This document shows, in pieces, positions 9,326 to 39,447 of a stretch of 41,685 bases of DNA. The notes beneath the pieces were generated by a model. That model worked only from the letters and a program-made list of their open reading frames with translations, was not told the DNA's origin and did no database searches. The translations under genes and the position numbers were made by a program. The DNA is from a virus: positions 1 through 41,685 of the IMG/VR virus record IMGVR_UViG_3300033153_005305. One strand, given 5' to 3'. Every line of letters begins with the position of its first letter. Position 1 is the first letter of the stretch.

Positions 9326-9332
9326 GAATTAA

Positions 9333-9908
9333 ATGGCACAAAGATATCACGGCATAAAGGCGGATACATACGAAAAGTTCCTTTTGGATTCAGGGGCTAT
9401 CTATACCGATTTTGTTAGTATAGGGGAACCTGGTACACTTTTGGGGGCTACTCGTGGTGGTGCTGTGTTTAAAAGGATGCCTAAATATAAAGATCTTCCT
9501 TATGAGGGTATACCAGGACAGGTAGTAGGGCAGAAGCATTTAATAGGTGTTAAGGTTTCTTTAGATGTTAATATAATTTCTTTTGACGAGGATAATTTAC
9601 CGCTCGCTATTCCTAACTCGGCGGTCTCAGCTCCATCCGGCGGATACGTCATAATAAACGAGTCAGAATGGGACGCCGAAGCGGTGCACAGCTTGACAAA
9701 CATAGCTATAATAGCGCAGCTTTCCGACGACTTTTCGCCGGTCGCTATAGTGTTAGATAACCCTATATGTGAAAAAGATCTAAGTTTAACTTTTAAGGAT
9801 AAAAGCGAAGCTGTCAGTAAGTGGCTATTTTCTGCTTTTTATAAAGAGTCGACGGGCTTTAGCGCGCCCCCGTGGCGTATGTATTGGCCTGTCTCTGCAA
9901 TACCATAA
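9333..9908 (+). CDS. Tail tube protein paralogue 1
   Basis: 191 aa. It is clearly related to the next gene: both begin with HGI-x-ADTY-x-KF, then D-x-GA-x-YT, then LLGAT-x-GG-x-F, then G-x-VVG and V-K-x-x-L-x-V-N. This gene has hardly any Shine-Dalgarno sequence (AAGAATTAA before the ATG), unlike its paralogue, which suggests lower expression or translation coupled to the upstream gene. The place just before the tail chaperones is where the major tail protein is expected. It may form a minor part of the tube or a decorated variant. Confidence 0.72.
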   Translation: MAQRYHGIKADTYEKFLLDSGAIYTDFVSIGEPGTLLGATRGGAVFKRMPKYKDLPYEGIPGQVVGQKHLIGVKVSLDVNIISFDEDNLPLAIPNSAVSAPSGGYVIINESEWDAEAVHSLTNIAIIAQLSDDFSPVAIVLDNPICEKDLSLTFKDKSEAVSKWLFSAFYKESTGFSAPPWRMYWPVSAIP

Positions 9909-9931
9909 ACAATTAAACCGGAGGTACAAAA

Positions 9932-10504
9932 ATGACTAGAAAACATGGAATAACAGCGGACACTTATAAGAAATTTATAATTGACGCGGGCGCGGTGTAT
10001 ACCGGCTTTACTGATTTTACTTCTTTAGGTACGCTTTTGGGCGCTACAAAAGGGGGGTCTCAATTTACTATTGAGCAGGATGTTAAAGAAATGGAAGTAG
10101 ACGGCGCGCGCGGGCCGGTTGTTGGCAGCCGTCGTTTAACTATGGTTAAGGCTACGCTTGTTGTAAATTTTATAGAGCACAGTTTAGCCAATTTGAAAAA
10201 GGCTTTAGTCGGTTCGGATTCGGCTACGTTCGAGGTTGACTGGGACAAGATCACGCGCGAGTTGGTAATTGAAGACGCAGACTTTCTTTCTGATATTACA
10301 CTAATCGGCGAGGTTTCCGGCGAGACTAATGGTTTAGGAATCAGCTTGGCTAACGTTATAGTAGATAGCAATTTTGAGTTGACTTTTGCGGATAAGGAAG
10401 AGGGCGTAGTAGCTATGACTTTTACCGCGCATACAACGCCGGAATTGCTTGGAGCTGATAACGATATAGAGCCCTGGGCAATCTTGCTACCTACCCCGTC
10501 TTAA
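9932..10504 (+). CDS. Major tail tube protein (paralogue 2)
   Basis: 190 aa. The strong ribosome site CGGAGG before ATG 9932, and the position immediately before the tail-assembly chaperone pair, make this the likely main tail tube subunit. It shares the N-terminal third with the preceding gene (HGITADTYKKF, YTGF, GTLLGATKGG) and has the beta-rich, Val/Thr-rich composition of siphoviral tube proteins, which stack in hexameric rings. A C-terminal region with LELTFADKEEG-like spacing (here FELTFADKEEG) is matched by LSLTFKDKSEA in the paralogue. Confidence 0.78.
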   Translation: MTRKHGITADTYKKFIIDAGAVYTGFTDFTSLGTLLGATKGGSQFTIEQDVKEMEVDGARGPVVGSRRLTMVKATLVVNFIEHSLANLKKALVGSDSATFEVDWDKITRELVIEDADFLSDITLIGEVSGETNGLGISLANVIVDSNFELTFADKEEGVVAMTFTAHTTPELLGADNDIEPWAILLPTPS

Positions 10505-26493: not shown

Positions 26494-26651
26494 TGCTGTA
26501 GCCTTTCTTTTAGTTGCTGTATTCGTTCGCTATATTCTTTATCAAGGATATCAAGCATTTCTGACGCGCCGTCTTTACCAAATAAAACGCAAAGCCCTAT
26601 AGCGGTAAGCGTAACGCCGGTAAATATCCATAGCATTTGTATATACTTCAT
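26490..26651 (-). CDS. Small membrane protein with coiled-coil tail
   Basis: 53 aa. The start at 26651 overlaps the PolA stop (ATGA). Residues 1-24 form a membrane helix (YIQMLWIFTGVTLTAIGLCV), followed by an acidic and basic coiled coil (EMLDILDKEYSERIQQLKER). This resembles a very short i-spanin or a membrane anchor for replication proteins. With the lipoprotein two genes further on, an unconventional spanin pair can be imagined, but 53 aa is short for that. Confidence 0.65.
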   Translation of the reverse strand: MKYIQMLWIFTGVTLTAIGLCVLFGKDGASEMLDILDKEYSERIQQLKERLQQ

Positions 26652-28663
26652 TTTTTATACCTCTTCGCTATGTACCCTTCGGCGGCTATAGGTAGACCCT
26701 CAGCCCAGGCGGGTACGGTTTCCATTATGCTGTTAAAGTGTTCTAAAGACCCATGGTCTTTTGGCGTGTCGGCTACTAGCTCGTCGTGTACTGTCAAGAC
26801 CAGGGGGTAGCCTGCGGCGTCTATCTCGATCATCTTATCGGCCATACAGTCCATAGCCATAGCCTGCGTTATGTTCTCTACGAGCTTACCGCCCCACGTC
26901 CTTCGTTTACAATATTTTTTAGTCACAGAGTCTACGCCCCAGTATTCTATTTGGAGCTTTCCGTAATTACCCTCTACTAAGCGAGGCCTATGGTACGCTA
27001 TCCGCCGCCCACTGGGTAAAATGCAGAATAAAAAAGAAAGCCTACCGCTTCCTAATGCTTTAAAGCTGACATTTTTAATACGTTGTACCGTTCCGGGATT
27101 AGCTAAGGCCTTTACTGCCGTCGCTTCGACGTTGTACCAGTACGATGTTATTTTAGGGTTACCCTTGCGCCATGCTTTTATAAATTTTTTAGCGTCTTCG
27201 TCTGGTATAACTACACCATAGTTAGGGGCTAGTTGTTGGAAGCCTTTAAGCCCGCCCCCAAAGCCGCAAAGTAATTCTGTTACTTTACCTATCTGCCTTT
27301 GTTCTTTATTTACATCTTCATAATTTACTTTGAAAATATCGGCTGCGCCTATCTTGTATATGTCCAGCTTATTTTCATAGGCTTCCAGCTTTTCGACGGC
27401 TCCGGCTAACCAAGCTAAACCCCGGCTTTCTATCTGCGAGAAGTCACTAACGAGTAGTCTGTTATACGGGGAAGCGGTGATCATGCCCCGAAGACAGTAG
27501 CTAATAGCTCTCAAGCAATTATCAAAAAGCATTTCTACGGCTTCGGGGTCTTGATACTCTAAAAGATCTATACATAAGTCTGGTAAGTCAAGCGATTTTC
27601 TCGGTAAATTATGCGGCTGAAATAAATTACCAGACCAGCGCCCCGTACTCGCGCCATGAAAACGCAGCAAGCCATAGCCCCGGCTCGTTTCGTCGATTAT
27701 GTTTTTAAGCTTATCATACTTAGCCAGCGACGATCGGGCTACTTCCAAGCGTAGCTTGATAATGCTAATGGCTTCCTGTAACTGCTGCCCTCGTTTCTGG
27801 TCTAACACCTGGCACTCCACTACAGATTCATTTAATATTTCTACCTGTCTTTTTAAATATTCTTTCTGGGCGTTCTCTAAAGGCACGTCTAATAATTCCA
27901 TGTAATCTAAAAACTGGTTTCGACCGCTTATGTTCTCTAACATGCCGCAAGTCTGATCAGATACTTTCTGAATGGCTTTCTTTTTAGCCTTGTCTATGGT
28001 GGCTATCGCGTTATTTACTGAAGGCATATCGAAGTACACGCCGCGTAGGTTTATCTTGCGGTCAAGCTCCCAAAGCTCGCGCGTCCGGGGCTGTAGCTCT
28101 GGGAGTAACTTATCTATACTACGCTCAGCTATAACGTCCTGTATGCAGTACCTTTTAAACTTCTCGAATAATTCAGGCTCGTCTTTTGGATACGTTCGTA
28201 TTAACTGGCCTTTAGTCTCTTTCTTAGTACTCTTTTTTGGTTTGGAAAATATTTGAATTAGCTTTTGGCCTTCCTTATCTTTCGCCGCTGCCATGTCCAG
28301 GCCGAGAGCTTCGCCGCAGTCGCCCAGCTTGCGAGGCAGCGCCAGCGCGGCGGCCTTAGCTGCGGTATCCGCCCAGTACTTAGGCGGCGGTACTGGCCAC
28401 TTTAAAACGTTACGCATTATACAAAGCTCGAAAAAGTCATTCCAGGCGGTGAGCTGGAAGTTAAGATAATTACCGCGCTCAGATAGATTTTCATGCCATA
28501 AGGGTAACTTGTCGCCCGGCAGCCATATAACCGGGGCGTCATCATTGAACGCCCAGGCCAGCATTAAAACCTCAGTGGTGGGGTGCATAGAGTACGCCCA
28601 CGCGCCGACGGTTTTTAAATCCGCTTCGCTGTAGGTTTCGTAATCTTTACGAAGTTTATCCAT
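26648..28663 (-). CDS. Family A DNA polymerase with 3'-5' exonuclease domain
   Basis: 671 aa. This is the replicative polymerase. The exonuclease domain opens with D-Y-E-T-Y-S (residues 6-11). The polymerase domain shows motif A DFSQIESR (about 408), motif B with R-Q-I-G-K-x-x-x-L-x-x-G-F-G-G, and motif C VHDEL (about 626). There is no 5'-3' exonuclease domain. The ATG at 28663 has no good Shine-Dalgarno sequence; a small hairpin and GC-rich spacer lie between it and the upstream gene, so expression may be low or leader-controlled. Confidence 0.96.
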   Translation of the reverse strand: MDKLRKDYETYSEADLKTVGAWAYSMHPTTEVLMLAWAFNDDAPVIWLPGDKLPLWHENLSERGNYLNFQLTAWNDFFELCIMRNVLKWPVPPPKYWADTAAKAAALALPRKLGDCGEALGLDMAAAKDKEGQKLIQIFSKPKKSTKKETKGQLIRTYPKDEPELFEKFKRYCIQDVIAERSIDKLLPELQPRTRELWELDRKINLRGVYFDMPSVNNAIATIDKAKKKAIQKVSDQTCGMLENISGRNQFLDYMELLDVPLENAQKEYLKRQVEILNESVVECQVLDQKRGQQLQEAISIIKLRLEVARSSLAKYDKLKNIIDETSRGYGLLRFHGASTGRWSGNLFQPHNLPRKSLDLPDLCIDLLEYQDPEAVEMLFDNCLRAISYCLRGMITASPYNRLLVSDFSQIESRGLAWLAGAVEKLEAYENKLDIYKIGAADIFKVNYEDVNKEQRQIGKVTELLCGFGGGLKGFQQLAPNYGVVIPDEDAKKFIKAWRKGNPKITSYWYNVEATAVKALANPGTVQRIKNVSFKALGSGRLSFLFCILPSGRRIAYHRPRLVEGNYGKLQIEYWGVDSVTKKYCKRRTWGGKLVENITQAMAMDCMADKMIEIDAAGYPLVLTVHDELVADTPKDHGSLEHFNSIMETVPAWAEGLPIAAEGYIAKRYKK

Positions 28664-28717: not shown

Positions 28718-29362
28718 TTAGCCTAAAAGGTCGTCGTCGTCGGGTGTGCCGCCGCCTAAAAGGTCGTCGTCGGGTGTATCTTTTTCGCCGCCGCCTAAAA
28801 GGTCGTCGTCGGGTATACCGTCGTCCAGAGATTCAAAGCCCTTTACGGCCTCTTCAGGTGATACATAAGAACCGTCGAAGCTCTCGGCGGGTTTGTTTAC
28901 GAATTGAACGGCGATCAATTTTGCGTTAACCCGCTTACCATACTTATTAGCTTGGCCCCATATCTCGATCTTAGCGTTTACATAACAGCCCGAGTATATA
29001 AGGTTAGTGGCTTCGGTCATTACTGTACGCCCGTCGGGGTGTAATACGAGAGGGGCGCGGGGATTATTCGCTTTAACCATAAGGTTACCCTCCATATATT
29101 TCATCTCGTCGCGGTCGGGAAGGCGTAAACACATTCTATCGGGGCCTAGCTTCCCATCCTCTTTAGCCTTGACTAACTTAGGGTTGTTGGTAATAGCTTC
29201 GCGCATATACTCTTTGATCATTTTTAATACTGGGCCGTGTTTTTCTTTTTCCAATATTAAGGCTATGCCCGGCCCGAAAGTATCGCCGTCGCGTATTTCG
29301 TTGCCGTACATTCTCGGGAATGAGCAACGTACATCTTTAACCATTATGTGTTTTTTTTCCAT
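28718..29362 (-). CDS. DUF2815 ssDNA-binding-like protein with repeated acidic tail
   Basis: 214 aa, with AAAGGAG before ATG 29362. Residues 1-165 resemble DUF2815, an OB-fold-type family placed next to phage polymerases and thought to bind ssDNA (SFPRMYG near the N-terminus, SGCYVNAKIEIWG at 124-136). Residues 180-214 are an acidic low-complexity tail with three copies of D-D-D-L-L-G (185-190, 198-203, 209-214), the last forming the C-terminus. Such acidic tails in phage and bacterial ssDNA-binding proteins recruit replication partners. Confidence 0.85.
   Translation of the reverse strand: MEKKHIMVKDVRCSFPRMYGNEIRDGDTFGPGIALILEKEKHGPVLKMIKEYMREAITNNPKLVKAKEDGKLGPDRMCLRLPDRDEMKYMEGNLMVKANNPRAPLVLHPDGRTVMTEATNLIYSGCYVNAKIEIWGQANKYGKRVNAKLIAVQFVNKPAESFDGSYVSPEEAVKGFESLDDGIPDDDLLGGGEKDTPDDDLLGGGTPDDDDLLG
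28722..28810 (-). repeat. Three direct repeats coding for D-D-D-L-L-G
   Basis: CCTAAAAGGTCGTCGTC (plus-strand reading) occurs at 28722-28738, 28755-28771 and 28794-28810, encoding the acidic motif on the minus strand. A fourth identical copy is at 30971-30987 in a different gene of the same operon. The spread across two genes suggests duplication and transposition of a coding unit rather than chance. Confidence 0.85.
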
Positions 29363-29395
29363 GGTGTCTACTCCTTTTGGCTTTTGGTTTATGAG

Positions 29396-30757
29396 TTAGC
29401 TAAGTAAATCGTCTTCGAAATCCTCAGCCGTTCCTATACTAAGTAAATCGTCTTCGAAATCTTCGGCGGGTTCTGTGTTGTCTTCTATGATTTTGTCTTT
29501 ACCCGGTGGCCGATGTATAGCCACAATTTCGAGTTTTTTGTATCTGCGCTTATGGTCTTTGGGCTTTACTTCTTTCAGCTTTTTTTCCGCTTCGGTGGGC
29601 GAGATAAGATCTATTTTTTCATAGTCCTGTTTTTGCAGCCCGGCGGTACGCATAGCTTTAATAGTCTCGTCGTCGTCGCCTATCCAGGCGCGGGGCTTTT
29701 CGGTGGGGCGCAATCCTAGCCCCGGAACTATTTGGCCGCTCTTTATACGGCTGGTTATCTCGTCGCCGAGGCCTTCGGCGAAGGCTAAGAATATTTGCAT
29801 CTTTAGATATATGGCCGCTAAATCAGCGTTATCTAAAAGCGCCCGGTCTTTAATGGTGGCTTTACTAACCTCGATAGCTGGCAGCTCGTTTTTTTCCTCG
29901 ACGGTTAGATCGTCGAAGCCCTCGACAGCAGCGCTATAACCCATCTGTGCTTGAGCTTTACAGCGCTTAAGCCGTCGCCCTTGGCACCATTTACAGCCGT
30001 CCTTAGTAGGCTTAAGATACTGCTGTAAGTGTTCTTCGCCGTTGTCTAAGGGATGATCAAGATATACGCCGGTAACGGTAGCGTATAAATCGTAAGCAAT
30101 CTTAGCTTTTGGTTTTACTTCCTCTTCGCCCCACTTTAAAAGATCGGCTATAGATATTTCATACTCGCTTATGTTATCTATACGCGGCTGAGCTATAACA
30201 ATAACTATTCTTTCGATCTCGCGTTCAAACATAAGATCTAACGAGTTAAGCGCGCCGAGCGCGTATAACTTTAGCTGGCTATTTTCGTAAGCGTTTACTT
30301 TATCGAAGCCATATTTAAAATCAATAATGTATAACGTGTTAACACGTTTCCCTGCGGCTACCTTCTCGTATACCTCTAAAACTATATCGCCGGTCCCAAA
30401 GCCGTTAGGTGCTATATGGGAATAGTCTAAGCGTTCTTCGTAGAAACCTTTTTTAGTGGTAAGTCTGCGCGAGTAGTCAATAACAACTTCAACGGCGTCC
30501 ACCATTTCTTGAGTGACTGCTATTCCAATTCCGTCCGGTGACCCGTTATCAACTGTTATTTTGTGGCCTAAATAAAACTCGGGTTCCTTGTCGAGCTTTA
30601 AAGACATTTCTAAAACTTCGTGGGCTGCTGTGCCTTCCCATGAATTTACGTTGCCATCGTCCGGCGCGTTAATTAACCCCTCTAACCCCAGAGCGCCAGG
30701 GCAGCTCAGCCACTTGGCTGAGCCGCTTGCTGATAGTGTGGCGTGAGCCTCAGACAC
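29396..30757 (-). CDS. DUF2800 PD-(D/E)XK nuclease, Cas4/RecB-like
   Basis: 453 aa, GTG start at 30757, one-base overlap with the upstream TAG. Nuclease motifs: GTGDIV (metal Asp), YIIDFKYG (D-x-K) and QLKLYALGAL (motif QxxxY). A single Cys in the N-terminal WLSCPG and a C-terminal C-K-W-C-x(6)-C cluster suggest a 4Fe-4S Cas4/AddB-type layout. It probably makes or trims DNA ends for recombination-dependent replication. The C-terminus has two identical AEDFEDDLLS blocks (431-440, 444-453). Confidence 0.88.
   Translation of the reverse strand: MSEAHATLSASGSAKWLSCPGALGLEGLINAPDDGNVNSWEGTAAHEVLEMSLKLDKEPEFYLGHKITVDNGSPDGIGIAVTQEMVDAVEVVIDYSRRLTTKKGFYEERLDYSHIAPNGFGTGDIVLEVYEKVAAGKRVNTLYIIDFKYGFDKVNAYENSQLKLYALGALNSLDLMFEREIERIVIVIAQPRIDNISEYEISIADLLKWGEEEVKPKAKIAYDLYATVTGVYLDHPLDNGEEHLQQYLKPTKDGCKWCQGRRLKRCKAQAQMGYSAAVEGFDDLTVEEKNELPAIEVSKATIKDRALLDNADLAAIYLKMQIFLAFAEGLGDEITSRIKSGQIVPGLGLRPTEKPRAWIGDDDETIKAMRTAGLQKQDYEKIDLISPTEAEKKLKEVKPKDHKRRYKKLEIVAIHRPPGKDKIIEDNTEPAEDFEDDLLSIGTAEDFEDDLLS
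29400..29461 (-). repeat. Two direct repeats coding for the AEDFEDDLLS tail
   Basis: A 23-bp sequence starting CTAAGTAAATCGTCTTCG lies at 29400-29422 and again at 29439-29461, 39 bases apart. It encodes the duplicated C-terminal block of the DUF2800 protein. A similar but diverged version (CAATAAATCGTCGTAGTC) is found at 39259-39276 in the small RHH-like gene. Confidence 0.8.
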
Positions 30758-31317
30758 TATTTTACTTCCGCGTCTTTTAAGGCTTTCAGCGCGCTTTCCA
30801 TGGCTTCGCCGAAGTTTTCTTTCTTCAATGCTCCTAAGCGTGGCGCGCCGAAGTCTGCAAGGATCTGCCGCGTAACGTCGCGCCCCAGGGCTTTTGTATT
30901 ATTTATTTTAAGTAGCGTCTTTTGTACATCTTCCAAGGTGTACACTTTGTCAGTGTCTGGCGGATCTAGCCCTAAAAGGTCGTCGTCGTCCGTGCCGCCT
31001 GGAGCGCCCTTTGTTAACAGCTCGTCGGCCTTAACCATAAAGCCGGAAAATACTTCCGGTTTAAGCTTCGCGAGATTAGCCGCGCCAAAACTTTGGAAAA
31101 GGCCGGCGAGCGCTTCTTTCCCCAGCTTTTTTAAGACTTCGCCGCCTTTAGCCTTGACAGCTTTTTTCAGATCCGCCAAATCTTTTTTTGTCATGTCTTT
31201 ACCGGTATCTGCTGGCGCGGTTGCGCCTGGGCATGCACTGGCGATCGTGGAAGTGACCGCGCTAACTAAAGCTGTAACGGCTTCTAAAAGATTCTCTGCT
31301 TTTTTTTCTAATGACAT
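30757..31317 (-). CDS. Two-domain helical protein with D-D-D-D-L-L-G linker
   Basis: 186 aa, with AAAGGGG upstream of ATG 31317. Residues about 42-103 and 127-180 look like two copies of one helical domain: LFQSFGAANLAKLKPEVF matches ILADFGAPRLGALKKENF. Between them lies D-D-D-D-L-L-G at 110-116, the motif seen in neighbouring proteins. The N-terminus is helical and hydrophobic-alternating. Function unknown; position between nuclease and clamp-like genes suggests a replication or recombination cofactor. Confidence 0.78.
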   Translation of the reverse strand: MSLEKKAENLLEAVTALVSAVTSTIASACPGATAPADTGKDMTKKDLADLKKAVKAKGGEVLKKLGKEALAGLFQSFGAANLAKLKPEVFSGFMVKADELLTKGAPGGTDDDDLLGLDPPDTDKVYTLEDVQKTLLKINNTKALGRDVTRQILADFGAPRLGALKKENFGEAMESALKALKDAEVK

Positions 31318-31331
31318 AATGACCCCTTTTT

Positions 31332-31787
31332 TTAGGTTAATAGTTTAATGAGTTTGTGTAGGTGGAAAGAAATATTTTCAGCGTCGTCTAAAGTTAGCTC
31401 GCGTTCCCATTTCATTTGAAGCGCCTGGAGTACAAAGCCTGTCAGGTCGTCGCGTATGGCTGCGGCTATGGCCGTCTTTATATCTACCATGGCGTAGCCC
31501 TCAAAGTCGTCATCTATGGCGCTTTCTTTAGGCTCGTCTCGCATAAGAAGACCGTCTGGTACGCCCGGATCGGTTTTAATTACGACCTGTTTTTTAGGAT
31601 CTATAAATTTAAAAACCGTGCCGAGTATATTGGAAAGCTCTTTATCTAGCTGCATGTGATTACATGAAAAATCGGTAAGCAGCCCGGCAACAAGTCGCTT
31701 TAAAGCCTTAGGCCCTAAGACGATCTCGGCGGCTACTATGGATTTATGCAGGTGCTTATTAAATACAGGGGGCTGTTTATCGTTCAA
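31332..31787 (-). CDS. Hypothetical replication-operon protein
   Basis: 151 aa. The start is TTG 31787 with a strong GGGAGG site; it overlaps the clamp-like gene's stop (TTGA). It is mostly helical, with an acidic centre (ESAIDDDFEGYAM) and two Cys/His-poor helical regions. I do not recognise a family. Tight coupling with the clamp-like gene argues for a shared function. Confidence 0.72.
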   Translation of the reverse strand: MNDKQPPVFNKHLHKSIVAAEIVLGPKALKRLVAGLLTDFSCNHMQLDKELSNILGTVFKFIDPKKQVVIKTDPGVPDGLLMRDEPKESAIDDDFEGYAMVDIKTAIAAAIRDDLTGFVLQALQMKWERELTLDDAENISFHLHKLIKLLT

Positions 31788-32422
31788 GATTTGTCCTCCC
31801 AGTCTAATAATTCTGAGCCGTCCGTTTCCTCTTCCTCACTTAATGGGGGTTCAATTATTAGGTCTTTATGGCCTATCTTTATAGGCGTTAGCAACCCTAA
31901 CATATTAGGTGCCTGAAGTATAATAAATGCAGATTCAGCAAAAATCTTTAGTGTTATATCCTCTCCCAGTAGATCGCCGTCTAATAGTTCTTTAAACATA
32001 TCAGCATTAAGCGCCATGGTGGGAGTTAATAACCTGGTAACTGCTGAAAATACCGCGTATAGCGACGCGCCCCCGTCTGCATAGGTAACCTTTACACTCT
32101 TACTTAGCAGTTTGTCGTCTGGAATTATGGCCTCTACGTTGGGGTAGGGCGTCTTACAATCGCTTTTATCTAAAATTATTTCAGACTTAGTAATTTTAGT
32201 GATGGAAAACAGCCCTTTACCTTTTATTAATTGAGGGTATATATTGGAACTAAATCGGTGTAGACGAAAACCGTCGCAGCCGGTGAATTGAATACTCTTA
32301 CCCAGCTTTTTTACATGTAAGCACTCTAGCGCCGGTCGGGCTCCGTCTTTACGCGCTACCGCTAAGCATGCCCAGCGTAGCTTTTTAAAAATGGCGTCAT
32401 GTTTAGCGATCTTTAGCGTCAT
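31784..32422 (-). CDS. Sliding-clamp-like protein (DnaN fold)
   Basis: 212 aa from ATG 32422 (AAAGGAC eleven bases upstream); a longer reading frame to 32476 would overlap the previous gene. The segments ARPALECLHV, then F-T-G-C-D-G-F-R-L-H-R-F, and YPNVEAIIPDD are typical of beta-clamp domains (R-x-x-L, T-D-x-x-R-L, and y-P-x-x-x-x-x-I-P). It is shorter than a 366-aa bacterial clamp, so it probably holds two domains or forms a larger ring. The C-terminus is acidic (EEEETDGSELLDWEDKS). It would tether the phage PolA. Confidence 0.7.
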   Translation of the reverse strand: MTLKIAKHDAIFKKLRWACLAVARKDGARPALECLHVKKLGKSIQFTGCDGFRLHRFSSNIYPQLIKGKGLFSITKITKSEIILDKSDCKTPYPNVEAIIPDDKLLSKSVKVTYADGGASLYAVFSAVTRLLTPTMALNADMFKELLDGDLLGEDITLKIFAESAFIILQAPNMLGLLTPIKIGHKDLIIEPPLSEEEETDGSELLDWEDKS

Positions 32423-32438
32423 TTTTGTTTGTCCTTTA

Positions 32439-32798
32439 CTAGCCGTATATTTCGGCGTTAAGATCATTACAAGCATCCATCCATTTATCAGAAGGCGGTA
32501 CGGGCGCGGTATAGGTTTCTGCGTCGATAAGGTCGAGCACTTTTTTAGCGGTTGTAAAAAGAGTGTTATAAGTTCCGTCGCCCTCTTTATCAGGCATATG
32601 AATGTCTGTTATATCGCCTTGGAGCGTTAGGGTATTTGTTTTACATTCTAACGCCAGAATTATCTTATTGTTTCTGTTATTGATCGCGATTACTTTACCA
32701 ATAACAGGCCCTGGTATTTTTCTAACAATGTCAAAGCCTTCTATACTATCCGGCAGTATCGCCGCGTCTGTGATACACTCTAGTGTTATTTTACTCAT
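32439..32798 (-). CDS. First gene of the leftward replication operon
   Basis: 119 aa from ATG 32798, which has AAAGGAC at a good distance; an ATG upstream at 32879 would overlap the promoter and is rejected. The sequence is beta-rich early on (ITLECITDAAILPDSIEGFD, then IILALECKTNTLTLQGDI) with a helical end. No family recognised. Its start pattern, AAAGGACAAA before ATG, is shared with the following gene. Confidence 0.72.
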   Translation of the reverse strand: MSKITLECITDAAILPDSIEGFDIVRKIPGPVIGKVIAINNRNNKIILALECKTNTLTLQGDITDIHMPDKEGDGTYNTLFTTAKKVLDLIDAETYTAPVPPSDKWMDACNDLNAEIYG

Positions 32799-32850
32799 GA
32801 TTTTGTCCTTTGTTGATTTTTGGCTTTTGGCTTTTGAATGTTCAATTTTT

Positions 32851-32879
32851 AAAATATCATACTTTCCGGCCAGTGTCAA
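32851..32879 (-). promoter_or_regulatory. Leftward promoter of the replication operon
   Basis: On the minus strand TTGACA (32879-32874) is followed after 17 bases by TATTTT (32856-32851). The -35 is the perfect sigma-70 consensus and the -10 is fair. Transcription would begin near 32844 and read the genes from 32798 down to 22770. A short near-palindrome, TTGAATGTTCAA at 32834-32845, lies near the start point and could be an operator. Confidence 0.72.
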
Positions 32880-32979
32880 TAAAAAAGATTGAAAATATTA
32901 AAATAATTATTTGTTGCAATTCCCATAATTTTATTGTAGGTTAAAAAATAGCCTTTTAATCTCAAAATAAGGGGATAGC
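32880..32979. other. Divergent intergenic region
   Basis: An AT-rich stretch between the leftward promoter and the rightward early operon. A rightward promoter must be here, but I see only weak candidates, such as TTGCAA at 32914-32919 with a poor -10 (TAGGTT) 17 bases later. AAGGGGAT at 32970-32977 is the ribosome site for the first rightward gene. No other gene is visible. Confidence 0.55.
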
Positions 32980-33285
32980 ATGAAAACAGTTATTAAAAAT
33001 CTGAATGACAGGACTGAAAATATCCGGCTATTAATCCGCGATCTTAATATGGATTGCGCAGATTTAAACGGCGTCGCGGTTACTATACCTGAAGACGCGC
33101 CTTATCCGGCAGTCTGTTTTAAAGGCAGTAAAGTAATACTGCATAATGTAAGCTCTGACCTGGACGCGGGCGGTGTACGCGCTACTATGGCTATGCCTTA
33201 TAATAAGGACGATAAAGATGATAAGGCGCGGCGTTTCTTCGGTGCGCAGTACAGATTTAGCATAGACGAAAGCTGGTTTGAATAG
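32980..33285 (+). CDS. Early hypothetical protein, paralogue A
   Basis: 101 aa, first gene of the rightward early operon, with AAGGGGAT upstream. It shares its plan with the gene at 33695: V-x-I-P-E-D/S...Y-P in the centre, F-K/I-G-x-K next, and RYRFSIDESWF or RYYVNITDDWF at the C-terminus. No known family. Being first in the early operon, it may act soon after entry on host targets. Confidence 0.75.
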   Translation: MKTVIKNLNDRTENIRLLIRDLNMDCADLNGVAVTIPEDAPYPAVCFKGSKVILHNVSSDLDAGGVRATMAMPYNKDDKDDKARRFFGAQYRFSIDESWFE

Positions 33286-33665
33286 TGGCTAAAAGTATTT
33301 TACAGATACAATTTCCTTACTATATACGACGCGCTATGTATTTTATAAATAGGTATTTTAGACCAATAAAGCCGGGTAGCTTATTTAGAGAGCTTCGCGC
33401 TAAACGGCTTAAGGTAGGCACACTAAAAGAGGTACATTTAAAGCCTTATCTTAAAAATCATAATTTTAAAGAAACGACCGAAAAGTATTGGCTTGATTAT
33501 TTTTTTAATAACATGCTTAACCTATATGGAATAGGCCGTATATGCGAAGCGTTACAAAATCTTGATCGCTATGCTGATTTAGACTACCAAGATAATTTTA
33601 AGCTTATAAAAGGGTACGGCGATTATTTAGGGACGCGCCCAGATGGTTATGAACTATTACAATAA
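33285..33665 (+). CDS. Early hypothetical protein
   Basis: 126 aa with a GTG start overlapping the preceding TAG. It is basic and aromatic (Tyr, Arg, Phe), predicted to be helical (PYYIRRAMYFINRYFRPI, LDYFFNNMLNLYGIGRICEA), and has no membrane-length hydrophobic run. No family recognised. The lack of its own ribosome site suggests coupling to paralogue A. Confidence 0.7.
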   Translation: MAKSILQIQFPYYIRRAMYFINRYFRPIKPGSLFRELRAKRLKVGTLKEVHLKPYLKNHNFKETTEKYWLDYFFNNMLNLYGIGRICEALQNLDRYADLDYQDNFKLIKGYGDYLGTRPDGYELLQ

Positions 33666-33694
33666 AAACTAAATCTTAACAGGAGTAAGATAAA

Positions 33695-33994
33695 ATGTCT
33701 AGATTATTAGTAGCTGCTTTAAATGTCGGCGCGCTTGCAATAAAAGCCGAGATAGATAAAATAAATAAAGTGTGCAAAAAATTTGAAGGTAGGGACGTTG
33801 TTATACCAGAATCGGTAGACTACCCGTTAAAAAAATTCATAGGCAGAAAAGGCCGTCTGCGCTATCCTCAATTTAATTCGCGTGATGGCTGCATGCACGC
33901 CGTAGTTGACTTGTATTACCTGGACGGTTCGGGGCGTGTAACGTCCTATCCTGAGACCAGGTACTACGTCAATATTACAGACGACTGGTTTTGA
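33695..33994 (+). CDS. Early hypothetical protein, paralogue B
   Basis: 99 aa, start at 33695 after AACAGGAG. Sequence order matches paralogue A at 32980: a helical N-terminus with C near residue 27, IPESVDYP, FIGRKGRLRYP and a C-terminal RYYVNITDDWF. This points to duplication followed by divergence on either side of the gene at 33285. Function unknown. Confidence 0.74.
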   Translation: MSRLLVAALNVGALAIKAEIDKINKVCKKFEGRDVVIPESVDYPLKKFIGRKGRLRYPQFNSRDGCMHAVVDLYYLDGSGRVTSYPETRYYVNITDDWF

Positions 33995-34026
33995 GAAATA
34001 AAACAACAACTAAAGGAGATCACAGG

Positions 34027-34203
34027 ATGCCCAAAACAAGATTGTATGGCGATATATCGCCGAATCATGAAAGTAATTTTCTTTTTATTAAAGGGGCTCT
34101 GGGCTGTAAGAGCAACGGCGAAGCCCTTGAGAGAATGATCGAAAAGCTTATTGGTCCCATACGGAAAGAGGCCGCGAGCGTTAAAGGCGTAAAAGACGCC
34201 TAA
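34027..34203 (+). CDS. Small RHH-like protein
   Basis: 58 aa from ATG 34027, seven bases after AAAGGAGAT; an in-frame ATG at 33991 lacks a site and overlaps the prior stop. TRLYGDISPNHESNFLFIKG then KSNGEALERMIEKLI resembles a ribbon-helix-helix unit (one strand, then helix with the K-S-x-G-E-A-L pattern). It could be a small transcription regulator for the early operon or a DNA-binding partner of the primase-helicase that starts right after its stop. Confidence 0.66.
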   Translation: MPKTRLYGDISPNHESNFLFIKGALGCKSNGEALERMIEKLIGPIRKEAASVKGVKDA

Positions 34204-36471
34204 ATGCAGACTAACTTCAAAAGTAAGCACGGCCCCGCGCTTATAGACGCGCGATATATGCTAGTGCCTATCAAGACGGGCGAAAAGTACCCTAATAAAA
34301 AAGGCTGGCCCCAGCTAAGGGCAACTCTACGAGACGTAGAGAGCTGGGCAGCCAGCCGATATTATGGCGGCCTGGGCGTGCTGGGGGAATTTAACCCTGG
34401 CATAGATATAGACATTCAAGACCGTGAGATAGTCGAAAAGGTTATTAAATGGTGCCAGAAAAACATAGGCGTAACGCCGGTAAGAACCGGTAACGCCCCG
34501 CGCGCGCTTATCCCCTGCTCAGCTCCGCCCGAAGGCCTGGGGCCGGATAACTCGGCTAAGTACGAGGATGATTTAGGGGTATCACACCAAATAGAAATTA
34601 AAGCGAAAGGCCAGCAATGGGTAGCTTACGGCATGCATCCCGGAACTGGAAAACCTTACGCTTGGGAGGGCGGCGAGCTGCATGATCTGGATAGCGACTT
34701 GCTGCCGTTGCTTACCGGGGATAAAATAGCCGCCCTCTTTTCTTATTTCGAGTCAATCGCCCCGGACACCTGGCTAAAGCTTTCTAAGGGACGCGCCCGC
34801 GCCAGAGCAGGCGGGTTAACGTCTGACGGCGAATTACAAGGCGGCACGGCTTTTGAGAATTATAAGCCCCCGCTTAATATAGACGCCGATCGTGTGCGCT
34901 CTATACTGGCAGCTCTGAGCCCCGACGGCGAAGTAAACGGCATGGGCTGGCGCTCTGTAGGCATGGCGCTTTATCATCAATTTGAAGGCAGCGACGAGGG
35001 ACAAGAAATTTACCGGGAATGGAGTGAAAATTCTATAGAGTATGACTATGACGAAATATTACTGCGCTGGCCGTCCTGGGGCGCTAATACCTACAGCGGT
35101 AACCCGGTAACCTTCGCAACAGTTATTCAGATGTATAATGAGGTTACCAAAAAAGCTGACGACCCTACCCGCAGGAAAAAAAGTAAAAAGCTGTCGGACT
35201 GGGAAAAGCGTTTTACTATGGTAGACCTGGCAGACAGTTCAGAAGTACATGACGCCGGAGTACCTATTCATAAAGCCCGCAGGCATACGCTCAGAGCCTT
35301 TAGAGAGCAAAACAGCGGCTACGTCCATAGGTTTAAAAACGTCCTGGGCGACGACGACAGCGAGCCTATGGTAACGTCCTGGCAGAACTCCCAGAACGTC
35401 CGGCACTTCGCCGGTTATACCTATCAGCCGGGGACGCCGCGCTTTTGCCGTCGGCCTAATAGCTACGACGACGACACGCAGTATATAAATACTTTTTACT
35501 TCCCCCCGCATACTGAAGAGATCCCCGATTACCGTGAGCGCTTAGCGCCGTTTAAGGACCTCTTAGCGCACTTGTTTCCAGAGCAAGCCGAAAGGCTGTG
35601 GTTTATTGAATGGCTCGCTAGGCTCATTCAAAACCCCTCTGTAAGGTCATTTGTAACGCCTATTAATATAACGCCGGTAACCGGGACCGGGCGCGGCATT
35701 TTATTTGATATCCTGCGGCTACTCGTCGGCGGCCACAACACCCATGACGTGAGCCCCGACGATATCGAAGGCAGGTTTAACGGCTTTTTGGATAAGTGCC
35801 TGATAGCAGTTATCCAGGAAATAAAAGCTAATACCGGCGCGCGCAAGTACCAGGTCTGGGAGCGTATGAAATCGCTGTTAGCTGATACCGTCGCAAATAT
35901 ACAGGCCAAAGGGCAAGACAGCTACACAGCGCACGTCTACGCTAATTTTTTAATGTTCTCCAATAACATCGACGCCCTGCCGCTGCGGGACGTTAACGAG
36001 CGCCGTGTATATGTTATGCGAGGCGCGAGCCGTGGGCTAAAAAATACAGAGATAGACGCTATTATAGAATGGAAAAAAGAAGAGGTTAATATATCGTCGC
36101 TGTTTAAGTACCTGAAAACCTACCCGGTGGACGAAGGCAATTTTAAGCGAGCGCCTAAGACCTTAACCAAGATTCAAATGGTTAACGCTACTGTAGGCGT
36201 AGGCGGCGCGGATATAGACGACTGGCTAGCCGAGGAAGCCCCGGAGGTATTTGATTTTGACTATGCCTATAACGCCCTGGAGAACTACTCTGAAGATATA
36301 GCAGCGGTGGGCATAGCGCGAGATCGCTTTAGGCGTATGCTGTTAGACAAGGGCTATCATTCAGTACAGATCCGTATAGATAATTCACGGCGCAAGTATG
36401 TGTATTTTCACCCGGACAAAACCGAAAACGATCCGGCTAAATTGAGAAAGCTTTATAATGATATTATTTAA
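34204..36471 (+). CDS. Primase-helicase (prim-pol, PriCT-2 and SF3-like ATPase)
   Basis: 755 aa. The N-terminal prim-pol-like domain has GLGVLGEFNPGIDIDIQD (catalytic D-x-D near 66-70). A PriCT-2-like region follows at about 229-290 (ILAALSPDGE through WRSVGMALYHQ). The C-terminal half is an SF3-like ATPase with the P-loop position T-G-T-G-R-G at about 493-498, where Lys is replaced by Arg, then AVIQEI and NFLMFSNN sensor-like motifs. It would unwind the origin and prime. It begins directly after the RHH-like stop (TAAATG). Confidence 0.88.
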   Translation: MQTNFKSKHGPALIDARYMLVPIKTGEKYPNKKGWPQLRATLRDVESWAASRYYGGLGVLGEFNPGIDIDIQDREIVEKVIKWCQKNIGVTPVRTGNAPRALIPCSAPPEGLGPDNSAKYEDDLGVSHQIEIKAKGQQWVAYGMHPGTGKPYAWEGGELHDLDSDLLPLLTGDKIAALFSYFESIAPDTWLKLSKGRARARAGGLTSDGELQGGTAFENYKPPLNIDADRVRSILAALSPDGEVNGMGWRSVGMALYHQFEGSDEGQEIYREWSENSIEYDYDEILLRWPSWGANTYSGNPVTFATVIQMYNEVTKKADDPTRRKKSKKLSDWEKRFTMVDLADSSEVHDAGVPIHKARRHTLRAFREQNSGYVHRFKNVLGDDDSEPMVTSWQNSQNVRHFAGYTYQPGTPRFCRRPNSYDDDTQYINTFYFPPHTEEIPDYRERLAPFKDLLAHLFPEQAERLWFIEWLARLIQNPSVRSFVTPINITPVTGTGRGILFDILRLLVGGHNTHDVSPDDIEGRFNGFLDKCLIAVIQEIKANTGARKYQVWERMKSLLADTVANIQAKGQDSYTAHVYANFLMFSNNIDALPLRDVNERRVYVMRGASRGLKNTEIDAIIEWKKEEVNISSLFKYLKTYPVDEGNFKRAPKTLTKIQMVNATVGVGGADIDDWLAEEAPEVFDFDYAYNALENYSEDIAAVGIARDRFRRMLLDKGYHSVQIRIDNSRRKYVYFHPDKTENDPAKLRKLYNDII

Positions 36472-36485
36472 CGAAAGGGTAAAAA

Positions 36486-36632
36486 ATGTCACCACTTGAA
36501 TTATTCTGCGTAATTATGTTTTCTATAAGTATGGCAGCCTTTGCTTTTGTGGTAATCGTATTGGTTGCTGCGAGATCCAACGATTATTCTGAAATGATGG
36601 AACATAAAGATTTAAATAAAAAAAGGCGGTGA
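36486..36632 (+). CDS. Small membrane protein
   Basis: 48 aa, ATG 36486 preceded by GAAAGGG. Residues 5-29 form a hydrophobic helix (ELFCVIMFSISMAAFAFVV); the tail is charged (NDYSEMMEHKDLNKKRR). The end sits next to the following gene's ribosome site. Tiny membrane proteins of this sort in early operons often change host membrane functions. No family recognised. Confidence 0.66.
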   Translation: MSPLELFCVIMFSISMAAFAFVVIVLVAARSNDYSEMMEHKDLNKKRR

Positions 36633-36635
36633 GTA

Positions 36636-36845
36636 ATGACTAGGATAAACTTAAAACTTTGTTCGCTCGATGTTAATACCAGTAATGCAACCTGTACTGA
36701 TAGAATAAAGGTTAGTGATTTGCCTCTATGTAAATCAGATACGGAATTTTGCGGTTATGTCGTAAATGGGAAAATACAATTAGACGAGGCTACGCTTAAA
36801 AAAGCGGGTTGTTACAGTGATGTTACCAGCAAAAAAGTAGGGTAA
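36636..36845 (+). CDS. Small Cys-containing hypothetical protein
   Basis: 69 aa, start ATG 36636 with the preceding AGGCGGTGAG. Five cysteines at about 9, 20, 32, 39 and 59. No recognised zinc motif; the C-terminal DATLKKAGC helix is similar in feel to other early proteins. It begins a run of Cys-rich small genes. Confidence 0.65.
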   Translation: MTRINLKLCSLDVNTSNATCTDRIKVSDLPLCKSDTEFCGYVVNGKIQLDEATLKKAGCYSDVTSKKVG

Positions 36846-36848
36846 AAA

Positions 36849-37028
36849 ATGATTGATAAAGGTTATAAGGTTACAATAGATATGGCTGACGAAAAAAAGG
36901 CAGATCGTAGCGCGCTAACTAGGGTAGCGGTAAAAGAGGGCAATGTATATTGTATAAAATGCAGCGTATTTTTAGGTATGACTTGCGATCCGTTTAGACC
37001 AGAGTGTTGTAACGGCTGTTTTAAATAA
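36849..37028 (+). CDS. Small Cys-rich protein
   Basis: 59 aa, ATG 36849. The C-terminal half reads CIKCSVFLGMTCDPFRPECC then NGC; with C-x-x-C, C, C-C and C this could bind zinc or form a small iron-binding knot. The N-terminus is a short charged helix/strand (YKVTIDMADEKKADRS). No family assigned. The site AAAAAATG is preceded by GTAGGG. Confidence 0.65.
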   Translation: MIDKGYKVTIDMADEKKADRSALTRVAVKEGNVYCIKCSVFLGMTCDPFRPECCNGCFK

Positions 37029-37039
37029 AGGGGTACGTA

Positions 37040-37288
37040 ATGAGAAAGCCAACACAACTGTTAAACGAGCTGCTATCTGAAACGCTGCCTAACAGTCCCC
37101 CGCGTCATGCCAAAAATGAAGCCAGGGTGCAAGGGATTTTAGACTTGTTTACTGAGAAAGAAAAAGATCTGAACGCGGCGAAAATTCTGTTAGCCTGGGC
37201 TAGACCCCGGCTGAACACTGTAGTTAGTGCCAAAGATGAGGAAGAGTTTATGTGTAAAATAAATAAGCTACTAAAAGGCGGTGGATAA
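37040..37288 (+). CDS. Small helical hypothetical protein
   Basis: 82 aa, ATG 37040 with AAAGGGG upstream. It is helical throughout (TQLLNELLSETL, ARVQGILDLFTEKEKDLNAA). No family recognised. It is the last gene before a 15-bp inverted repeat that frames the next gene. Confidence 0.7.
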   Translation: MRKPTQLLNELLSETLPNSPPRHAKNEARVQGILDLFTEKEKDLNAAKILLAWARPRLNTVVSAKDEEEFMCKINKLLKGGG

Positions 37289-37293
37289 AGTAT

Positions 37294-37650
37294 TTAACTA
37301 ACCTACGCATACACACATACAAACATATAAACATATAAAAGGAGTAAATTATGATATTAAAAATAATGACATTTAAAAAAGGTAATCATACCGATGGTAA
37401 GAGCGGAGAGGGTATTCATGAGCATGCCTCTACTGAGCTTATCCAAGGCTTAAAAATCCAGTGGTGTGATGTTAAGGCGTTAGACGATAAAATGTTTACT
37501 CGGTTTACTGTTGATGAAAACAAACCGACAGAACGCGATCGCATGATCTCGTTCGACCTGATTAATCAACGCCTAGTTTCCGCCTACGTCCTGAACGACT
37601 CAGGCAAGACAATCCAAAAGCCAATTTAACTTAACTGCGTAGGTTAGTTA
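37294..37650. repeat. 15-bp perfect inverted repeats flanking one gene
   Basis: TAACTAACCTACGCA at 37294-37308 is repeated in exact inverse (TGCGTAGGTTAGTTA) at 37636-37650. The pair encloses a single gene and its leader, 357 bp in all. No target-site duplication is visible outside. In mRNA the arms could close a long stem; in DNA they could be recombination ends or paired binding sites. Confidence 0.8.
37351..37629 (+). CDS. Small hypothetical protein within inverted repeats
   Basis: 92 aa, ATG 37351 after AAAGGAGTAAAT. It has a His-rich spot (GNHTDGKSGEGIHEHAS), then WCDVKALDDKMFTRFTV and a C-terminal helix/strand (DLINQRLVSAYVLND). No family. It is the only gene between the 15-bp inverted repeats, with a long AT-rich, purine-pyrimidine alternating leader (37309-37340) containing CATATAAACATATAAAA. 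Confidence 0.7.
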   Translation: MILKIMTFKKGNHTDGKSGEGIHEHASTELIQGLKIQWCDVKALDDKMFTRFTVDENKPTERDRMISFDLINQRLVSAYVLNDSGKTIQKPI

Positions 37651-37683
37651 TTTTAGTTTTACAATCATTAAGGAGCTTATATA

Positions 37684-37974
37684 ATGACGCTATTTGAAGA
37701 GATAAAAAAGGCGGTAGCCACCTATGATAAAAACCCCGCGCTAATGTCTAAGGCGCGAGCCGTAGAGCTTTTGGAAAGGTGCCTGGTCTTATCCACTGGC
37801 AGAGTTAGAAAGCCGGTTAAATACGCATGCTGCGTTGAAACTAGCTGCCTGTGTTTTAGCCAGTACCCAGGCCGTAAAAATCCGGTAGTAAGGAAAACAA
37901 ATTGCACTCAGCATAAGACGATTAAAACCATGATGCGTTGTAGCCATAAAATACTTAGCGGTAGTACAGCGTAA
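37684..37974 (+). CDS. Small Cys-rich protein
   Basis: 96 aa, ATG 37684 with AAGGAG. The N-terminal half is helical (FEEIKKAVATYDKNPALMS); the C-terminal half has many Cys (YACCVETSCLCFSQY, then NCTQHKTIKTMMRCSH), likely metal binding. No named family. One-base overlap (TAATG) with the zinc-ribbon gene. Confidence 0.7.
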   Translation: MTLFEEIKKAVATYDKNPALMSKARAVELLERCLVLSTGRVRKPVKYACCVETSCLCFSQYPGRKNPVVRKTNCTQHKTIKTMMRCSHKILSGSTA

Positions 37975-38156
37975 TGAGCTGTACTTGCCAAGATTGCGGC
38001 GTTGGTTATAAAGTAGATCTGCTTATCCCCGACGCGCTTTGGGAAGCTATTAGAGGTGATAAAAATTTATTATGCGGCGTGTGTATTATGGATAAAATAG
38101 AAGACCTGGACGAGTATGGCTCTTTAAAAGTAACTGAGGGACAAGTAGGGAAATGA
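37974..38156 (+). CDS. Small zinc-ribbon-like protein
   Basis: 60 aa. Cysteines C-x-C-x-x-C at 3, 5 and 8 and C-x-x-C at 34 and 37 (CTCQDC and CGVC) form a treble-clef or ribbon-like zinc site. A helix WEAIRGDKN sits between the halves. Such mini-ribbons occur widely in phage early regions; partners are unknown. The next gene begins immediately after its TGA. Confidence 0.75.
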   Translation: MSCTCQDCGVGYKVDLLIPDALWEAIRGDKNLLCGVCIMDKIEDLDEYGSLKVTEGQVGK

Positions 38157-38333
38157 GTGATTGAGCCCGAAGATAAAAGAGAGTGTCAATTTAAAGTACC
38201 TCCGGCCTGCCGCATGTACACTCTGTGCATGCATGCGGGCTATGGTAACGGGAAAAATAGTATACGGTGCTGCTTTCTATACTGGGAATTAGTGACTGAT
38301 AGGATTTATAATAAACTTAACAGTGAGGGGTAA
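38157..38333 (+). CDS. Small Cys-rich protein (GTG start)
   Basis: 58 aa from GTG 38157, directly after the previous stop, with GTAGGGAAATG upstream. The translation starts MIEPEDKRECQFKVPPACRM and continues with C-M-H-A-G-Y and R-C-C-F-L-Y-W. The six cysteines suggest metal binding. No ATG fits this frame at the right place, so the start is a best guess. Confidence 0.6.
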   Translation: MIEPEDKRECQFKVPPACRMYTLCMHAGYGNGKNSIRCCFLYWELVTDRIYNKLNSEG

Positions 38334-38335
38334 TT

Positions 38336-38506
38336 ATGGAAATCTTTGAAAGAGCAGACGGTAAAGGTAAAGTGATAATCTTAGCCGATAAACATGATTC
38401 GCGAATTTTAGACGCTATGGTAGTGTACGCGGCTGAAAATAATAAGCGTAAAAAAACCTGGCAGAAAATTTATACGCAGTTCTATAAAGAGCTGCCGCTT
38501 TTTTAA
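38336..38506 (+). CDS. Small basic hypothetical protein
   Basis: 56 aa, ATG 38336 after GAGGGGTAATT, a leader shared with the genes at 38529 and 38966. The translation starts MEIFERADGKGKVIILADK and ends in a basic helix (NNKRKKTWQKIYTQFYKELP). It might bind nucleic acid. No family recognised. Confidence 0.66.
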   Translation: MEIFERADGKGKVIILADKHDSRILDAMVVYAAENNKRKKTWQKIYTQFYKELPLF

Positions 38507-38528
38507 AACCTAATCAGAAGGGGTAATT

Positions 38529-38729
38529 ATGCTAAAATGTTACAATTTTTTATGCGTATCAAATCAGCCGCTTTTAGCTAATAGCTGCTTAAAGCATTGT
38601 GATGATATGCTACCAGGCTGCCCGAAGCTGCACGCCTTTAATAAAATAGAGATCGTTCTGCTAAACGGTAGTGAAAACGACGCAACTTATAAGGCCTGGC
38701 TTAAAGAGAAAAACAAAGTTACGGGGTAG
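38529..38729 (+). CDS. Small Cys-rich protein
   Basis: 66 aa, ATG 38529 with AAGGGG. Five Cys in the first half (LKCYNFLCVSN, NSCLKHCDD, PGCPKLH) are likely a zinc site; the second half is a strand-helix unit (IEIVLLNGSENDATYKAWLK). No family named. Confidence 0.66.
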   Translation: MLKCYNFLCVSNQPLLANSCLKHCDDMLPGCPKLHAFNKIEIVLLNGSENDATYKAWLKEKNKVTG

Positions 38730-38763
38730 TGCTATAAAAAGCCCTGATTTGCACGATTACAAA

Positions 38764-38943
38764 ATGAAAGCCGTCGTCGAATTATCCGGCGAGCAAATCG
38801 AAGCGGTAGTTATATTCGATTACGTAGGCCGTATTGTATACATAAATCAAGTGGTATATAAAGGAAAAGATATCAAGAGCATTATAAGCGGTAGCGTAGA
38901 GGCCAATTTAGAAAGGCTTTTATATAGGACATTTGGTAGATAA
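38764..38943 (+). CDS. Small hypothetical protein, start uncertain
   Basis: 59 aa from ATG 38764; the frame is open from a GTG at 38671 inside the previous gene, and a TTG at 38749 is another option. I prefer the ATG because the coding character begins there (MKAVVELSGEQIEAVVIFDY), but none of the three has a good ribosome site. It is an alpha/beta sequence with beta strands and a terminal helix (ANLERLLYRTF). Confidence 0.55.
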   Translation: MKAVVELSGEQIEAVVIFDYVGRIVYINQVVYKGKDIKSIISGSVEANLERLLYRTFGR

Positions 38944-38965
38944 CAATTAACAGAAAGAGGTAATT

Positions 38966-39256
38966 ATGAAAACTAGTCTCAAATTAATAGCCGAAGAAAG
39001 ATTTCGGCAGATAGATAAAAAAGGCTACGACGCCTTGCGCGATAAAGTACACGTTAAAGGTGAGTTAATAAAAGCTGCCGTAATGTACGCGCTGGATGTT
39101 ATCAAGCCCGGTTTTTCTAATGACGATAAAGTGGTAAACTGGCCTTGGAGTCCGCAATGGTGGAAACCTACGCCCGACGATAAAGTACGGCAGCTTACTA
39201 AAGCCGCTGCCCTAATCGCCGCTGAGATCGACCGGATACAAGGTACTGGCGCTTAG
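38966..39256 (+). CDS. Phage protein with ERxRQ...WPW motif, MazG-like helical
   Basis: 96 aa, ATG 38966 with AAAGAGG. It begins LKLIAEERFRQIDKKGYDA, then HVKGELIKAAVMYAL, WPWSPQWWKP and KAAALIAAEIDRIQ. This arrangement occurs in many phages; helices with E-x-x-x-E and a central D suggest a MazG-like NTP-binding fold, but the enzymatic role is not known to me. It meets the leftward operon tail to tail. Confidence 0.74.
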   Translation: MKTSLKLIAEERFRQIDKKGYDALRDKVHVKGELIKAAVMYALDVIKPGFSNDDKVVNWPWSPQWWKPTPDDKVRQLTKAAALIAAEIDRIQGTGA

Positions 39257-39447
39257 CTCAATAAATCGTCGTAGTCTTCCAAATCCTTTTTACTTGTTAG
39301 CAGGGCGCGTATATACTGCGCGCCTTTTGCTATACACCATTTCTTGAGGCTGGCCGGTACTTTTACCTGGTAGGGTTTCAATGGGCCTTCAGTGCTTATG
39401 CAGGGCTTGCGCCCCCGTTCATGCGGCTGTATGCATCGGCGGGTCAT
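39253..39447 (-). CDS. Small RHH-like protein ending in D-D-L-L-S
   Basis: 64 aa. The start at 39447 overlaps the upstream stop (ATGA). PLKPYQVKVPASLKKWCIAKGAQYIRALL reads as strand, helix and helix in the manner of an RHH (arc/CopG) protein (split here: YQVKVPASL, then GAQYIRALL). The C-terminus is KKDLEDYDDLLS, nearly the same as the DUF2800 and DUF2815 tails. It may be a DNA-binding regulator tied to the replication proteins. Confidence 0.72.
   Translation of the reverse strand: MTRRCIQPHERGRKPCISTEGPLKPYQVKVPASLKKWCIAKGAQYIRALLTSKKDLEDYDDLLS

Follow-up and report, generated by a model that had tools for sequence, protein, structure and literature searches.

Unrelated proteins of a phage and its relatives share the C-terminal tip of their own single-stranded DNA-binding protein, probably as a docking signal for one receptor

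The locus considered here raises the question of why unrelated proteins of one phage should carry the same short acidic peptide, D-D-L-L-(G/S). The window, which is the whole stretch of viral DNA that was analysed (41,685 nucleotides), was scanned in all six frames and contains a total of seven [DE]DLL peptides, every one of which lies within the four minus-strand genes for which the initial annotation had reported the motif. In three of the four, as had been claimed, DDLL and one further residue, G or S, form the exact end of the protein, where 0.002 such ends would be expected among 61 gene-like open reading frames. This expectation is the same whether it is derived from composition or from shuffles of each protein, and it refers to a greedy choice of open reading frames from which the gene of the 186-aa protein was left out. 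Our answer is that the tip was probably copied from the phage's own single-stranded DNA-binding protein (SSB) and that the tagged proteins probably dock on one receptor, for which the family A DNA polymerase (PolA) is the foremost candidate.

Proteins that carry the motif

The features on which the argument rests are the following (all on the minus strand).

26648..28663, minus: family A DNA polymerase (PolA; Pfam PF00476), untagged, candidate receptor
28718..29362, minus: Enc34-type SSB of 214 aa (DUF2815, PF10991) with three DDDLLG blocks in its acidic tail (Pfam 9e-16; PHROG 112, 4e-24)
28721..28738, minus: C-terminal tip of the SSB, DDDLLG, residues 209-214 (window sequence and relatives)
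28754..28771, minus: second SSB block, DDDLLG, residues 198-203 (near-identical DNA in the other copies)
28793..28810, minus: first SSB block, DDDLLG, residues 185-190 (window sequence)
29396..30757, minus: DUF2800 exonuclease, 453 aa (Pfam PF10926, 1e-59; PHROG 69, exonuclease, 1e-67)
29399..29428, minus: C-terminal AEDFEDDLLS of the exonuclease, residues 444-453 (window sequence and homologues)
29438..29467, minus: first exonuclease block, AEDFEDDLLS, residues 431-440 (window sequence)
30757..31317, minus: 186-aa adaptor, an N-terminal helix followed by two helical domains of one family (HMM matches; AF2)
30970..30990, minus: interdomain linker of the adaptor, DDDDLLG, residues 110-116 (window sequence; disordered in AF2)
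39253..39447, minus: 64-aa protein
39256..39285, minus: C-terminal end of the 64-aa protein, DLEDYDDLLS (window sequence)

The DUF2815 protein matches its Pfam profile with 58.5 bits against a curated cut-off of 26 and is, judged by sequence, an Enc34-type, gp2.5-like SSB. Its C-terminal tail is acidic, and an acidic, unstructured C-terminal tail is known from the Enc34 SSB (PMC5686142). As one of the four motif proteins is thus an SSB, the likening of the motif to SSB tails in the initial annotation becomes literal. The DUF2800 protein likewise exceeds the cut-off of its profile (203 bits against 21). With an SSB and an exonuclease among its carriers, the motif can be read as the tip of an SSB-type tail that has been copied onto other proteins.

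The 186-aa adaptor consists of two copies of one small helical domain, with HMM matches at residues 53-97 and 126-176 to families of unknown function (PHROG 408, 3709 and 18562). In the AF2 model (overall pLDDT 85.8), the DDDDLLG segment forms a disordered stretch between the helical domains (pLDDT about 50-66), which bears out its earlier description as an interdomain linker, and no docking of this segment in cis is predicted. An identification of the domain with the Redβ C-terminal domain or lambda Orf was rejected as no fold match in the PDB had an E-value lower than 0.7 (two-domain model) or 3.8 (single domain); the sequence matches in the PDB were chance matches to ankyrins, and tblastn of the adaptor against the phage collection returned zero matches. 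For the 64-aa protein, previously termed RHH-like, no profile support for that assignment was found.

Retention of the tip and matching to the phage's own SSB

Variation of the tails among relatives had been proposed as the check on a shared function. Five contigs with a common gene set (G001-G004 and L213) serve as close relatives. Their SSBs end in DDLLA, GDPLLD, GDDLLS, DEDNLLG and PDDLLG, so that the terminal tip is kept in four and degenerate in G002 (GDPLLD), a contig in which the tips are degenerate only. The exonucleases end in IDDLLS, GFDLLE, LDDLLS, DDFDDLLGDADDLLG and VENLLD, ADDLLG is among the ends of the homologues, and DDLL is retained in the adaptor linker of all five relatives. 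The tip thus persists, at least in degenerate form, on the SSB, the exonuclease and the linker while the flanking tail changes, and the chain end is mostly kept while the internal repeats of the window's SSB and exonuclease tails generally are not. The small proteins behave differently: G003 has an additional 72-aa protein with the C-terminus DIDDLLS, while neither L005 nor L006 has the tip on its homologue of the 64-aa protein, which indicates that small proteins gain and lose their tags. The check thus counts only in part against a shared function. In the window lineage, the primase-helicase and the SNF2 helicase are without a tag, the window primase ending in KLYNDII.

The wider family was assembled as 157 loci from viral contigs and genomes, later extended to 244, in which the gene sets of unannotated loci are six-frame open reading frames beginning at the first possible start codon. 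In the tips of most Enc34-type SSBs, an acidic stretch is joined to a hydrophobic residue and in many cases a small final one (DDDFLG, DDILG, DDLLG, EDFLN). Other tips have F at the end, and the tail of a single clade is neutral (DPITGxPxxGGVMGL). When the exonuclease and SSB tails were compared by the best six-residue match inside their last 20 residues, the exonuclease tail was found by permutation to resemble the SSB tail of its own phage far more than those of other phages, with z values, for phages dereplicated by SSB identity, of 8.0 (identity below 70%, n=98), 7.0 (below 60%, n=62), 4.4 (below 50%, n=23) and 4.3 (below 45%, n=15) and p 0.0002 at each cut-off. This can be seen in the tails of L272 (SSB TDDFDDISEGADASDLV, exonuclease NDFDDVSDDALAADLI) and L065 (DDFDDLSVEDEGDLV and DDFEDLGAEDLV, respectively) and in L108, where DDFDDE is common to both proteins. 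Further proteins also carry the tip of their own SSB, among them a DUF1351 protein in L166, a 62-aa protein in L063 (DDIDDLFA, next to DDDDMFA on the SSB) and small proteins in L169 and in L119/L132. In total there are 11 such proteins, a count that takes in exonucleases of the window lineage, where 3.5 would be expected and the highest count reached in 100 permutations was 8.

Annotated phages confirm that the sharing of tips is much wider than first described. In Casjensviridae, it spans the primase, helicase, exonuclease, SSB, small adaptor, terminase small subunit and a head protein. All eight tagged proteins of SAP012 end in an acidic stretch plus V, namely the DUF7609 "RecT-like" protein, RdgC, the DUF7443 protein (whose gene adjoins the major capsid gene), the primase, the adaptor, the exonuclease, the SSB and the terminase small subunit, and a scan of the SAP012 open reading frames yielded zero with an acidic end and another hydrophobic residue. 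In A18P4, eight of eight end in an acidic stretch plus I, including a methyltransferase, the helicase, the terminase small subunit and the DUF7443 homologue; in MA11, six of six end in acidic plus L; and no tagged end with a different hydrophobic residue was found in any of these three phages. Seifer has the V end on its primase, adaptor, exonuclease, SSB and terminase small subunit, while Ruegeria phage V18 uses the spelling of the window itself (primase EDLLG, adaptor DDILG, exonuclease and SSB DDLLG). The end VTEEDLE is common to the helicase-primase and the exonuclease of Kagunavirus, and sharing is partial or mixed in Saba, phiAxp-2, Loktanella pCB2051-A, R22L and RcMrWorf. Across six protein families in 14 Casjensviridae and related phages, with tips entered by hand, the last residue is common to 76 of 142 within-phage family pairs, as compared with 23.3 under the null (sd 4.1, maximum 42 in 5000 permutations), in a permutation test that ignores the phylogeny of these mutually related phages.

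These data also bear on the reading in which nothing docks at all, the tails being either generically acidic or the product of a recently copied DNA cassette. Acidic tails are indeed common among phage proteins, and in the window the three blocks of the SSB and the adaptor linker are nearly identical at the DNA level, the mark of a recent cassette duplication there. However, the permutation tests against other acidic tails favour matching within the own phage, the last residue switches in concert, and the codons of the last residue differ among the tagged genes of one phage in SAP012, A18P4 and MA11. Selection therefore acts on the peptide, and DNA copying was rejected as the sole cause. This makes an absence of docking very improbable; the reading is already disfavoured in the wider family and stands mainly as an account of the origin of the extra internal copies.

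Candidate receptors

The tip probably serves as a docking signal for one receptor, since up to eight unrelated proteins of a related phage carry one phage-specific tag and hence probably all dock on one common partner. In the proposed mechanism, the D-D-L-L-(G/S) peptides would be copied from the end of the SSB that the phage itself encodes, and this SSB, the exonuclease next to it and certain small proteins would dock alternately, or in competition, on a receptor belonging to the replication and recombination machinery of the phage. Its pocket would read the end of the chain preceded by acidic residues, and each lineage would spell the tip in its own way, with all tagged proteins of one phage changing together. 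The initial annotation had suggested a phage-wide recruitment code in which several proteins dock on one receptor, the core of which is strongly supported by the matching of tails within a phage, the concerted last residue in Casjensviridae, the retention in close relatives and the precedent of phage T7.

In T7, the family A polymerase gp5 has basic patches to which the gp4 tail docks (PMC12593628, PMC5997990), and the last four residues are DGDF in gp2.5 and DTDF in gp4. The likeness to the present system lies in an OB-fold SSB with an acidic tail, a family A polymerase and more than one protein with a similar acidic tip, here the SSB and the exonuclease in both the window and relatives. The T7 tips end in F, whereas those of the window end in L-L-G/S and those of relatives in V, I, L or other residues. 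The tip on the T7 helicase-primase is absent from the window primase but present in Casjensviridae and Kagunavirus, and in relatives the tip is also found on the exonuclease, adaptor, primase, helicase, terminase small subunit and head protein, with PolA as the candidate receptor. The most likely receptor would be PolA, by analogy with the basic patches of the T7 polymerase that bind the acidic tails of the SSB and the helicase-primase. PolA is a constant neighbour, the gene order adaptor-exonuclease-SSB-PolA being found in 94 of 94 loci, and it is never tagged (none of 171 related PolA proteins has at least four acidic residues among its last eight). Together with the T7 precedent, this makes PolA the first candidate, though a tentative one. 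In partial Mantel tests, which may be too permissive when sequences are related, neither SSB-tail nor exonuclease-tail distance is tracked by PolA distance after control for the other proteins.

The SSB tail shows a closer relation to the adaptor domain and to the SSB body than to PolA. The adaptor encoded nearby could, through its small helical domain, gather the tails of the SSB and the exonuclease, for which the constant gene order also speaks. SSB-tail distance follows adaptor-domain distance given the exonuclease, PolA and the SSB body (r 0.29-0.35, p 0.002), and the only clade whose SSB tails are neutral lacks the basic residues that are otherwise conserved in the domain. What first appeared as strong coevolution was, however, found to rest mainly on that clade: without it, r falls to 0.11 (p 0.02), and under the strictest dereplication (n=20) the signal is not significant (p 0.08). 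In addition, the adaptor is itself tagged in Enc34, SAP012, A18P4 and V18, and its linker motif is undocked in the AF2 model. The adaptor is a doubtful receptor for these reasons.

The SSB itself is somewhat less doubtful, while still unlikely. The tips of the exonuclease, primase and other proteins would enter its DNA-binding groove as its own tail does, to be displaced by single-stranded DNA. In crystals of the Enc34 SSB, the C-terminus, as far as it can be traced, occupies the groove of an adjacent molecule (PMC5686142), and the distance of the exonuclease tail weakly tracks that of the SSB body after control (r 0.11, p 0.014, n=104; r 0.175, p 0.04, n=20), a signal that is not significant at n=57. 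Docking on the SSB would also leave the need for a sequence-specific last residue unexplained.

A host factor, for instance a host SSB-binding protein for which the tips would be decoys, is about as doubtful as the adaptor. These phages could plausibly engage the SSB network of the host, as separate small proteins with the host SSB tip DDDIPF are encoded in SAP012, XAP3 and R22L. By contrast, the main tips differ from DDDIPF and also among phages of related hosts (V in Salmonella, L in Pectobacterium), and they look private to the phage. The clamp-like protein (31784-32476), named earlier as a possible receptor, is disfavoured, as single-sequence phmmer (E<1e-3) detected no homologue in the loci fetched from five relatives with a retained tip; this concerns the phage clamp only.

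Relation to known SSB tails and significance

The preferred reading, in which tagged proteins dock on one phage receptor, has parallels in other SSB tails. The bacterial SSB tip DDDIPF likewise joins an acidic stretch to a hydrophobic chain end and is used for recruitment; its Pro-Phe end is absent from the window tips (DDDDLLG, DDLLS), which also occur on proteins other than the SSB. The gp32 of T4, an unrelated phage, ends in LDDLLNDL and so has the same DDLL core at its SSB tail, in agreement with the initial annotation. The recruitment of Sak4 by the SSB tail of HK620 (PMC5928155) supports a general role of phage SSB tails. The gene module itself has been described as duf2800-gp2.5-polA (PMC8093625), and the passages of that account that were consulted mention neither shared tails nor an adjacent adaptor gene. 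An earlier description of shared tips beyond T7 was not found in the open-access literature, a result that lends weak support to novelty.

An acidic tip is common to two replication proteins in T7 and, here, to as many as eight unrelated proteins of a single phage. Because the code changes in concert between lineages, the receptor is directly testable by tip swaps. It is conceivable, at a little under even chances, that phages of the DUF2800-SSB-PolA type place a private C-terminal code on most of their DNA-handling proteins, from the primase and exonuclease to the terminase small subunit and a head protein, which is read by one phage receptor and changes in all genes together. Replication, recombination and packaging would then share a hub insulated from the SSB network of the host, and the last few residues of a protein could list the members of the replication and packaging hub of a phage, including proteins of unknown function.

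The adaptor family and the neutral-tail SSBs

The unnamed adaptor family, comprising the window protein at 30757-31317 and its relatives at the related viral loci L052-L289, is laid out as a helix, a flexible linker and a helical domain of about 50 aa, and its gene directly precedes that of the exonuclease. Family members in streptococcal phages are annotated as 'rRNA biogenesis protein rrp5', and comparison with the PDB returned no fold match. Judged by eye, the N-terminal part of the following protein looks like a peripheral subunit-binding domain:

L002:9095-9616, +, adaptor protein

In one SSB clade the tail is neutral, DPITGxPxxGGVMGL, rather than acidic, and the conserved basic residues of the adaptor domain are lost in the same phages:

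L091, L095, L106, L116, L140, L181, L203, L205, neutral-tail SSB genes

Other proteins and tails

Window 31784-32476, -, clamp-like protein, 230 aa
Window 74-655, +, terminase small subunit
L309:4794-7034 and 8974-10215, +, Kagunavirus helicase-primase and exonuclease genes

The clamp-like protein had no profile match, and the regions fetched from five close relatives contained no detectable homologue of it. In the window lineage (window, L007-L019) terminase small subunits have a conserved tail of their own, often xLGFDV, which is unlike DDLL. The two Kagunavirus proteins share their final seven residues, VTEEDLE, an ending that the SSB of this phage lacks.

Small proteins with a host-type SSB tip

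L296:4554-4907, +, small phage protein
L297:4623-4997, +, small phage protein
L301:13975-14388, +, small phage protein

These proteins end in WDDDIPF or DLDDDIPF, which is exactly the host-type SSB C-terminal tip and differs from the phages' own tip. They may be mimics of host SSB.
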